Positions 9,986 through 13,111 of a stretch of DNA of 64,000 nt are shown in pieces. Source of the DNA: Caenorhabditis elegans. Taxonomy: Eukaryota > Nematoda > Chromadorea > Rhabditida > Rhabditidae. The stretch covers positions 17,795,501 to 17,859,500 of the forward strand of contig NC_003283.11 in assembly GCF_000002985.6 (NCBI RefSeq), given 5' to 3'. The position numbers were made by a program, and so were the translations under genes. Below the pieces are notes generated by a model. It did not search any database and had not been told where the DNA came from. It worked only from the letters and a program-made list of their open reading frames with translations. Within the stretch, counting starts at the first letter, position 1, and each line of letters starts with the position of its first letter.

Positions 9986-12900
9986 ATGTTCCTTTCGTCT
10001 ATCAGCTCACCTGATACCTACTCGACTATCCTATTCATAATCGCCGGATTCTCATTTCCCATCCATCTATTTGGTGGTTACTGTATCCTATTCAAAACTC
10101 CTGAAGTCATGAAATCAGTGAAATGGAGTTTGTTCAGCTTTCACTTTTTCTCGGCTTTAATGGACTTTTCTGTGAGCTTTTTTGTTCAGCCGTTCGTCTG
10201 TTTTCCTGTCATGGGTGGATTTTCAATGGGAGTATTGGAATGGCTAAACGTGAATATGGGGATTATGGCGTTTTTCGGAATGATTATTGTTGCATGTACA
10301 GTGCTGGCCAAAAAGATATCCACTTTTGGTTTTTTGTGTGTAACTTTTTTCTCAAGCATCCATTTGACTTGAATTTTTCCGTGTGCATAAAGCGAAATGT
10401 TACGCAAATTTGCGGACCAAACATTACATGATTATCGATTTTTTCTGAATTTTATTTCAATTTTTTGATTTTTTCGTTTTTCCAATTTTCATTATTTTTT
10501 TTGAATTATCAATAAAACGCACTCTGTTTGTTGCACTGGATTTGTTTGGTTGATAAATTATTTTTAAGGTATGGTAAAATCTGTTGGGTGTAAAAATCTT
10601 TCCTTGGACGTCAAGAAAGCCATTGTAGCTGGCTTCGAACAAGGAATACCCACGAAAATGCTCGCGCTGCAAATTCAACGTTCTCCGTCGACTATTTGGA
10701 AAGTAATCAAGAAGTACCAAACTGAGGTGAGTTCGAAAAATAGTATTTTTTAATAATAAATGTTTAGAAATCCGTCGCTTTGAGAATCTCGCCCGGCAGG
10801 CCTCGAGTGACAACCCATAGGATGGATCGCAACATCCTCCGATCAGCAAGAGAAGATCCGCATAGGACCGCCACGGATATTCAAATGATTATAAGTTCTC
10901 CAAATGAACCTGTACCAAGTAAACGAACTGTTCGTCGACGTTTACAGCAAGCAGGACTACACGGACGAAAGCCAGTCAAGAAACCGTTCATCAGTAAGAA
11001 AAATCGCATGGCTCGAGTTGCGTGGGCAAAAGCGCATCTTCGTTGGGGACGTCAGGAATGGGCTAAACACATCTGGTCTGACGAAAGCAAGTTCAATTTG
11101 TTCGGGAGTGATGGAAATTCCTGGGTACGTCGTCCTGATGGCTCTAGGTACTCTCCAAAGTATCAATGCCCAACCGTTAAGCATGGAGGTGGGAGCGTCA
11201 TGGTGTGGGGGTGCTTCACCAGCACTTCCATGGGCCCACTAAGGAGAATCCAAAGCATTATGGATCGTTTTCAATACGAAAACATCTTGGAAACTACAAT
11301 GCGACCCTGGGCACTTCAAAATGTGGGCCGTGGCTTCGTGTTTCAGCAGGATAACGATCCTAAGCATACTTCTCTTCATGTGCGTTCCTGGTTTCAACGT
11401 CGTCGTGTGCATTTGCTCGATTGGCCAAGTCAGTCTCCGGACTTGAATCCAATAGAGCATTTGTGGGAAGAGTTGGAAAGACGTCTTGGAGGTATTCGGG
11501 CTTCAAATGCAGATGCCAAATTCAACCAGTTGGAAAACGCTTGGAAAGCTATCCCCATGTCAGTTATTCACAAGCTGATCGACTCGATGCCACGTCGTTG
11601 TCAAGCTGTTATTGATGCAAACGGATACGCGACAAAGTATTAAGCATAATTATGTTGTTTTTAAATCCAATTGCTCATATTCCGGTACTTTAATTGTCAT
11701 TTCCTTGCAACCTCGGTTTTTTCAATATTTCTAGTTTTTCGATTTTTTTGAATTTTTCTGAAGTTTTTTCAAAATCTGTTGAACATTTTTGATGAATATT
11801 GTGTTTTTAGATTTTGTGAACACTGTGGTGAAGTTTCAAAACAAAATAACCACTTAGAAAAAAGTTACACACAAAAAACCAAAAGTGGATATCTTTTTGG
11901 CCAGCACTGTAAGTGATGTTTTTGGAATATTTTCATCCAGATTTTCAGAATCTGCGCTCGTGTATAGAGATGTAAAAAACGTTTAGCTTTTTCCATAATA
12001 ACACACCCCGGCCTCATCAATTATATTCCTTACTTTTGATTCAAAAAAATGTTAGAAAACAGCGTTAAACTCCCGTTACTTTCCCTTCCATACTGGCCTA
12101 TTTTTAAAATGCCAAACAAAAAAATGCAACCGACACCTTGTGGGTTGCAATGCCAATAGCCTGGCTTGGCCGGCATCAAGTACCGAGGTGCCAAAAAGTA
12201 TCTGGGGCTGCTAACAATATGAATACCACAGAAAGTAGAGCAAACACTAAAATCCTGAAAAAAGGAAAAAAAAACGACAAAAATCAGGAAAAATGGGATA
12301 TTCCAAAATCCGAAAAAGGGACCTAAAAAAGACAAAATTAAAAAAAAAAAGAAAAAAGTTTTGCACCCAATTCTCATCAAATAACAAATCATTTCAGTCG
12401 TACCTATTTCCATCATCAAAATGTTTGAAAACCGTTATTTTGTCCTGTTTGCAATGCACACTTGCTGGCGCTACACTCGGTATCCATTTTTAACCCTGAA
12501 CTACCTAATGGGAATACTTGCCTCTACCGCATCATATCTGGAGATCCCAAATCAAGAGTACGCCAGAACTGTGACGTTCAAAGTGTATCCAAGGATATTA
12601 CTTTATGATACCGCGGAACATCGGATATTTATTCTAGCTATTGACTTTTACTCGCTTATCATTCGCCAATCGTTCTTCACAGCATTATTTCTAATCGAGC
12701 TTATTGTGTTCGTAGTTCTCATCCGGTTGAACATGAAAAAAGCTCTATCTGGGATACGGTCTTCGGTTTCCAGTAAAACATTAAAAATGCACAAGACTTT
12801 CATGACGACTTTAAATATTCAGGTATACTAGATTTTGTTCGTTTTTATCAAACACCTGATTTCAGGTAGCCGTTCCCATAGTCTTCATCTGTATTCCATC

Positions 12901-13111
12901 ATTTGCCAGTATTGCAATACCATTGATCAATGCGGATAATCAAGGCACCAATAATCTTATTTATATAACTTTATCAACTCATGGAGCTCTATCAACATTA
13001 GTCATGGTGTATTTACAGAAATCATATAGGGAAACGGTTCTGCAAATTGTTGGGTGTAATCGGGATGTTGCTGAAAGAAATGTTCGAATTGTGATTCCAG
13101 TTACCTCTTAA
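9986..13111 (+). CDS. srh-family serpentine receptor with Tc1 in its first splice donor
   Basis: Exons 9986-10295, 12398-12822 and 12866-13111 keep the standard srh phases (1, 0) and total 327 codons with no stop. Exon 1 has PIHLFGGYCILFKTP and SVSFFVQPFVC. Exon 2 opens VPISIIKMFENRYFVLF. Exon 3 ends STHGALSTLVMVYLQKSYR. Without Tc1 the donor would read CAT|GTAAGTGATG. Tc1 has entered at the TA of GTAAGT and changed it to GTACAG while keeping the GT. The coding sequence is therefore undamaged, and the gene is inactive only if this weakened donor fails or transcription ends in Tc1. Intron 1 with Tc1 is 2102 nt and would be about 490 nt without it. AATAAA is at 13133. Coding integrity is certain; expression is not. 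Confidence 0.88.
10299..11909 (+). mobile_element. Tc1 transposon, full length (1611 bp)
   Basis: Begins CAGTGCTGGCCAAAAAGATA and ends with its complement. The terminal inverted repeats of 54 bp (10299-10352 and 11856-11909) match at every position I compared. They are flanked by the duplicated target TA at 10297-10298 and 11910-11911. Length and ends match the canonical C. elegans Tc1. The target before insertion, GCATGTAAGTG, agrees well with the known preferred Tc1 site CAYATATRTG. The internal transposase gene is complete, so the copy is potentially autonomous. Confidence 0.98.
10571..11643 (+). CDS. tc1a: Tc1 transposase (Tc1A), 343 aa, two exons
   Basis: Exons 10571-10726 and 10768-11643 are separated by a 41-nt GT/AG intron and give 343 residues, the normal Tc1A length. 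The N terminus (residues 1-50) is the paired-like helix-turn-helix that binds the terminal repeat (QIQRSPSTIWKVIKKY). A second DNA-binding helix-turn-helix follows, with the basic GRPR linker (GRPRVTTH) and SKRTVRRRLQQAG. The catalytic DD34E triad is visible as WSDESKF, QQDNDPKH and NPIEHLWEELE. The enzyme cuts and pastes Tc1 at TA sites in the nucleus. It is uninterrupted. The host srh gene is in the same orientation. Confidence 0.97.
11912..12397. other. remainder of interrupted srh intron 1
   Basis: Original intron sequence downstream of Tc1. It carries A-rich runs near 12260-12360 and ends in the acceptor AATCATTTCAG at 12397. No further element is recognised. Confidence 0.6.

Follow-up and report, generated by a model that had tools for sequence, protein, structure and literature searches.

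The window, a 64,000-nucleotide stretch of the Caenorhabditis elegans genome (C5:17795501-17859500), holds a chemoreceptor gene of the srh family within a tandem array of related exons. The gene is interrupted in its first intron by a full-length copy of the transposon Tc1. The features of the gene, the element and their junctions are listed below, with positions counted from the first letter of the window and a slash in a motif separating exon from intron letters.

9986..10295, + strand: srh exon 1, from the ATG to the first base of codon 104, followed by a phase-1 intron (from frame, domain and paralog alignment)
10296..10301, + strand: left-junction donor remnant GTACAG, in the context CAT/GTACAG
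10297..10298, + strand: TA target-site duplication, left copy
10299..11909, + strand: full-length Tc1, 1611 bp (from flanks, terminal repeats, genome-wide matches and transposase domains)
10340..10345, + strand: candidate cryptic donor TGT/GTAACT in the left terminal repeat (usage suggested by the 48-nt rsd-3 arithmetic)
10370..10372, + strand: first in-frame stop once exon 1 reads into Tc1
10571..11643, + strand: Tc1 transposase gene, 10571-10726 joined to 10768-11643, 343 aa
10727-10767, + strand: transposase intron (from splice motifs)
11899..11904, + strand: candidate cryptic acceptor GGCCAG/ in the right terminal repeat (putative usage)
11909..11914, + strand: rebuilt complete donor GTAAGT, made of the last Tc1 G, TA and AGT, in the context CACT/GTAAGTG
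11910..11911, + strand: TA target-site duplication, right copy
11912..12397, + strand: rest of srh intron 1, ending TTTCAG
12398..12822, + strand: srh exon 2
12866..13111, + strand: srh exon 3, including the stop

Joined together, the three srh exons form a 326-aa frame with zero internal stops. The spliced frame covers positions 1-301 of 302 of the Pfam profile PF10318 (7TM_GPCR_Srh) with an E value of 2.5e-95, which identifies it as an Srh gene and bears out the first-pass annotation that the frame is intact on both sides of the element. With Tc1 subtracted, intron 1 measures 489 nt, a length that is not unusual because the gaps of paralogs at the same intron span 47 to 1788 nt. The part of the intron downstream of the element (11912-12397) has just two short partial matches elsewhere in the genome, and its sequence is explained by no repeat family.

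Tc1 is an autonomous element. The copy in the window has the properties that define it, namely a length of ~1.61 kb, inverted repeats at both ends, and a DDE transposase. The transposase gene was modeled from open frames and splice motifs, with the start codon and total length derived by hand, and the Pfam domains HTH_Tnp_Tc3_2 and DDE_3 match its second exon only. In a search of 100,286,401 bases on 7 contigs, in which copy counts are lower bounds, at least 24 other genomic places are 100% identical (rounded) to the window copy over ~1.61 kb, one more is 99% identical, and additional copies elsewhere carry length changes or deletions. A TA duplication flanks the window copy and 29 other counted copies. 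Strain N2 is reported to carry about 30 copies of Tc1, and the same study covers 1,659 Tc1 insertions of Bergerac (PMC9635669). The copy in the window appears to be a recent, ordinary cut-and-paste insertion, its recency being judged from its identity to the other copies.

When the flanks of Tc1 are rejoined, the empty site reads ...ATTGTTGCAT/GTAAGTGATG..., that is GCAT/GTAAGTGATG, and the TA used for insertion forms positions +2 and +3 of the intron-1 donor in a complete srh gene. Paralogs place a donor at the same position. Among 17 paralogous exon-1 matches, drawn from the window and six outside loci with alignments reaching codon 89 or further, 14 have GTAAGT or GTGAGT at the identical phase-1 position, another 2 carry GTGAG shifted downstream by one codon, and the last lacks a donor; a stricter list places the donor at the srh position in 11 of 12. 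Owing to this agreement, the empty site is supported as a real splice donor and a chance resemblance to one is rejected. The first-pass annotation described Tc1 as lying exactly inside a GTAAGT donor, with CAT/GTAAGTG as the empty site and GTACAG as the left remnant. The placement is confirmed by the junctions, the TA duplication and the paralogs, and both sequences by the joined flanks. An empty allele without Tc1 should read CATGTAAGTG.

Because Tc1 begins with CAG and ends with G, its insertion leaves GTACAG at the left junction and GTAAGTG (11909-11915) at the right. The ends of the element are inverted repeats, so by sequence logic either orientation of Tc1 in the TA at donor positions +2 and +3 gives the same pair of junctions. 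The terminal G plus TA is a simple geometric reason why a Tc1 insertion at G/TA keeps a copy of the donor. The claim that damage is limited to donor positions +4 to +6 is not quite right in this respect, for the right junction holds a complete rebuilt GTAAGTG that had gone unmentioned earlier, and the splicing to be expected changes with it. Tc1 junctions in general resemble donors because the element ends in G and favors T at TA+3: 8 of 60 Tc1 junctions carry GTA[AT]GT versus 1.6 expected (P 0.0002), among them 6 with GTATGT versus 0.9 expected (P 0.0003) and 2 with GTAAGT itself versus 0.7 expected (P 0.15).

The strength of the competing donors can be gauged from the srh family. A table of 32 family donors, each with a confirmed following exon, comprises 13 from intron 1 and 19 from intron 2, including the intron-2 donor of the gene itself. 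Left out of the table were 26605, 39330 and 45688 (no GT at the expected place), L048:1702 (zero gap), and 18105, L072:3218 and L076:2004 (no following-exon match). The tabulated donors split completely by intron. Those of intron 1 have G at +5 in 13/13 and G at -1 in 0/13, and those of intron 2 have G at -1 in 19/19, G at +5 in 4/19, and mostly poor +4 to +6 bases. Donors with neither G number 0 of the 32; the dropped row L076:2004, TCAA/GTTACT, has neither and, provided that it is a real donor, would break this rule. At the interrupted gene, the left CAT/GTACAG and the internal TGT/GTAACT lack both -1G and +5G, and the right CACT/GTAAGTG has +5G. An additive score derived from the 32 donors gives 5.7 for the left GTACAG, 4.9 for the rebuilt right donor, 3.8 for the internal one, and 10.9 for the donor of the empty site, with about 3 of the 32 real donors scoring below either the left or the rebuilt right donor. 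As the additive score ranks the left donor slightly higher, it is the -1G/+5G rule, not the score, that speaks for the rebuilt donor.

The rebuilt right donor would be used most, since it alone of the three candidates has the +5G on which this class of intron relies. Its use would retain Tc1 in exon 1, bring translation to a stop at 10372, and expose the mRNA to decay. Minor products may include a transcript from which 10340-11904 is removed before the rebuilt donor is used, which would carry exactly +48 nt in frame, and a transcript from low-level use of GTACAG. Joining the 10340 donor directly to exon 2 shifts the frame and gives a stop within exon 2. The mRNA is thus predicted to be mostly Tc1-containing and prematurely stopped, and not cleanly spliced with Tc1 as an intron. 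Retention of the element through the rebuilt donor, with loss of the mRNA and reduction or loss of srh function, is the probable outcome, and the gene in this strain is most likely a reduced or null allele. Weighed against this reading is work by Rushforth and Anderson from 1996, whose title, as cited in PMC4910058 and PMC2586383, reportedly concerns removal by splicing. An annotation of this srh gene should carry the warning that it is probably not normally expressed in N2.

Two other fates of the transcript have to be weighed against retention. As the first-pass annotation suggested, Tc1 could be carried within an intron, here one of 2.1 kb running from CAT/GTACAG to the normal acceptor at 12397 and yielding wild-type srh mRNA. 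This donor keeps its GT and an exact frame, the additive score of GTACAG does not fall under those of all real donors, and the family donors of intron 2 include GTACAT and GTGCAG after an exon ending in CAG. However, the weak donors of the family all have -1G, whereas at the srh site position -1 is T and position +5 is A, a state seen in 0/32, and the complete GTAAGTG downstream competes for use. Clean removal of Tc1 as part of the intron is therefore unlikely. More doubtful still is splicing of only the interior of Tc1 (10340-11904), followed by joining of the rebuilt donor to exon 2, to give a receptor that stays in frame and gains 16 residues, CTVLAKKISTFGFLCH, placed before FVPISIIKMFENRY and ahead of the ENRY motif. 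The 48-nt insert keeps the frame, has no internal stop, and equals in length the insert reported for rsd-3(pk2013), in which 48 nt were kept in frame at the Tc1 site in 3 of 5 cDNA clones (PMC4910058). Counted from the ends of Tc1, the 41 nt up to the 10340 donor, the 5 nt after GGCCAG, and the TA also sum to 48 nt, which suggests that the rsd-3 insert uses the 10340-type donor with the GGCCAG acceptor. Against such a product in srh, the donor required has neither -1G nor +5G, an exon piece of 4 nt would have to lie between acceptor and donor, and the use of the same sites in rsd-3 follows from arithmetic only. The retention of Tc1 through the rebuilt donor remains the preferred reading.

A second Tc1 copy, L015 (C5:10187651-10189272, in the region C5:10187150-10189800), lies in a donor, CAG/GTAAGTG, of a gene on the opposite strand. 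Read on the strand of that gene, its junctions are CAG/GTACAG and CACT/GTAAGTG, the same pair as in srh. The flanking exons, whose joins were picked from open frames and splice motifs, encode an acid-sphingomyelinase-like phosphodiesterase (Pfam Metallophos, E 2.1e-7). They align with PDB 5kar (E 8.3e-26), gapless across the exon junction, which falls within the codon for the arginine of LLFSRFPNQ. At L015, where the interrupted exon ends in CAG, clean splicing is more plausible than at srh. The reference strain thus carries two natural alleles that are both split at GTAAGTG and differ at the last base of the exon, and different splicing is predicted for them. The pair could show whether a donor that has lost its original bases at +4 to +6 is rescued by -1G.

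How often Tc1 is expected in donors depends on its target preference, for which 30 sites were compared: the window copy and 29 copies with clean TA flanks. These include L034-L036, which have internal length changes, and L037 and L038, which have large deletions; the L018 pair (no TA at the outer junctions) and L039-L046 (Tc1-like or single-ended matches) were excluded. The background consists of 6,962 TAs in 110,178 bases from the window, Tc1 flanks and some srh loci, and is not a genome sample. The first-pass annotation held that the srh site fits the published consensus CAYATATRTG (from Korswagen et al. 1996, quoted in PMC9635669), and 8 of the 10 positions do match. A match of at least 8/10 is found at 11/30 Tc1 sites versus 1.9% of 5,882 background TA sites, and a site model trained without the window site places that site at the 98.6th percentile of the 6,962 background TAs. 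Across the 30 sites, A at TA-3 or T at TA+3 is present in 52 of 60 symmetrised half-sites, and 22/30 sites carry ANNTANNT; it occurs at 10.4% of background TAs and at 7 of the 21 family donors with GTA.

Donors are moderate, better-than-average targets of Tc1 because the A at TA-3 and the T at TA+3 coincide with A at -2 and T at +6 of the donor. The proposal that the Tc1 preference overlaps the donor consensus holds to this extent. Not every donor is attractive, however, as the five scored GTAAGT donors of family intron 1 range from the 21st to the 89th percentile as Tc1 sites; CAG/GTAAGTT stands at the 97th and AAG/GTATGTT at the 98th. The further proposal that donors preceded by CA may be natural Tc1 hot spots stands only in the moderate sense. 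A strong hot spot at GTAAGT is not upheld, given that a site model trained without both GTAAGT sites assigns this motif a share of 0.41%, below its 0.56% share of background TAs, which is due to A being disfavored after TA (6/60). GTAAGT is the target at 2/30 sites, a nominal excess over both the background share (P 0.012) and the model share (P 0.007) that is treated as post hoc because the window copy prompted the test. The broader motif GTA[AT]G is found at 7/30 targets, mostly as GTATG (5/30), versus 2.9% of background or ~0.9 expected (P 1.9e-5), and 2 of the 7 are at confirmed exon ends.

The genome contains about 110,000 introns. With this total, the 21 of 32 family donors that have GTA, and a TA content of 6.3% of bases, a hand estimate puts ~1.1% of TAs in donors. 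Without weighting, 0.34 donor insertions are expected in 30, with a probability of two or more of ~0.05. With a ~2.5-fold weighting by the ANNTANNT preference, which includes both donor sites and is therefore slightly generous, ~0.9 are expected and the probability of two or more is ~0.2. At least two of the 30 examined copies, those in srh and L015, are in real donors. GTA stands at the target in 16 sites, of which the 15 other than the window copy were inspected by eye in flanks of 500 bases, and the count of two is a lower bound because L030, L013, L024, L026 and L029 may also be donors. On these figures, about one donor insertion is expected in 30, extra attraction beyond sequence is not needed, and the test on the GTAAGT motif disagrees with the one on donors.

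A biological attraction of Tc1 to donors or to transcribed gene starts, over and above local sequence, would also account for two or more copies in real donors, the GTAAGT P values and the seven GTA[AT]G targets, and it would be in keeping with the report that the Tc1 copies of N2 lie only between genes or in introns, the latter being over-represented (PMC9635669). Yet the test was prompted by the window copy, the weighted donor-level expectation lies close to one, just two of the seven GTA[AT]G sites adjoin confirmed exons, and the background spans 110 kb and not a sample of the genome. Such an attraction is quite improbable, and the preference of Tc1 for its local target sequence is the reading retained here.

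Several other copies have features of their own. L022 (C5:18441800-18444500) is apparently just inside a possible exon start, TTGTAG/GTATGTGACC, in a frame without a Pfam match; this impression is at odds with the 'none in exons' of PMC9635669. At L030 (C2:783850-786500), an open frame of 90 aa without a Pfam match runs to a donor-like CAC/GTATGT at Tc1. The frames at L013, L024, L026 and L029 gave nothing above Pfam cut-offs. L018 (C5:1833800-1838200) consists of two Tc1 copies in opposite orientation, one of them truncated. Their outer flanks repeat each other in inverted form (ATCTTCGTAATG and CATTACGAAGAT), TA is missing at the outer junctions, and the pair looks like an inverted duplication. 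At L028 (C2:6570700-6573350), Tc1 adjoins an exon of a Sra/Srab-type chemoreceptor on the opposite strand. L039, L041, L042 and L044, elements 878-923 bp long, are flanked by TA and have terminal repeats like those of Tc1; they apparently belong to a related non-Tc1 family.

The srh locus is itself ordinary, and its usefulness is in the donor-rebuilding geometry and the contrast between the two natural cases. A wider view can be offered tentatively, in which Tc1 has an affinity for donors as well as a pre-adaptation to them, donor insertions are recurrent and partly tolerated, and the final G of the exon decides whether splicing is clean. If this were true, the core A..TA..T would overlap AG/GTANGT, the terminal G would rebuild the donor, and the left GTACAG would still work after an exon-final G. 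Exons ending in G, like that of L015, would splice Tc1 away cleanly, and others, like that of srh, would not. Natural Tc1 copies would then test the trade-off between -1G and +5G, and would point to one way for Tc1/mariner elements to hide within introns.

Among the literature matches listed, judged by titles and abstract openings with the subscription literature mostly outside their coverage, there is no report of Tc1 within a splice donor, and in three of them that mention both Tc1 and donors the two mentions are unrelated. The word 'splice' has 0 occurrences in PMC9635669. The gene resembles the Srh chemoreceptor family of C. elegans in its full Srh domain, its tandem array of paralogs and the conserved position of intron 1, and differs in that this intron harbors Tc1. 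A broader likeness is to introners, DNA transposons reported to create introns by recruiting splice sites from target duplications (PMC9860276). In both, a terminal-repeat transposon and its target duplication supply part of a splice site at the junction. Introners, however, are present as many copies forming new introns, whereas 2 of 30 Tc1 copies are in donors with none demonstrated as a new intron, and in srh it is an existing donor that has been displaced.

The closest cases are insertions of the same element in rsd-3(pk2013) and dpy-19(unk88). In the latter, Tc1 in exon 7 is reported to be removed from the pre-mRNA, likely through a cryptic site, and excision left a footprint of 4 nt (PMC12405876); a +4 scar is described as the typical somatic Tc1 footprint, at 78% (PMC13148408). 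Such a scar at the srh site would lie within the intron. For both genes, processing of the host pre-mRNA through sites at or near Tc1 is reported or suggested (PMC4910058, PMC12405876), as is predicted for srh. The difference is that their insertions are exonic, whereas in srh, in the reference strain itself, Tc1 has divided a genuine donor and recreated a copy of that donor.
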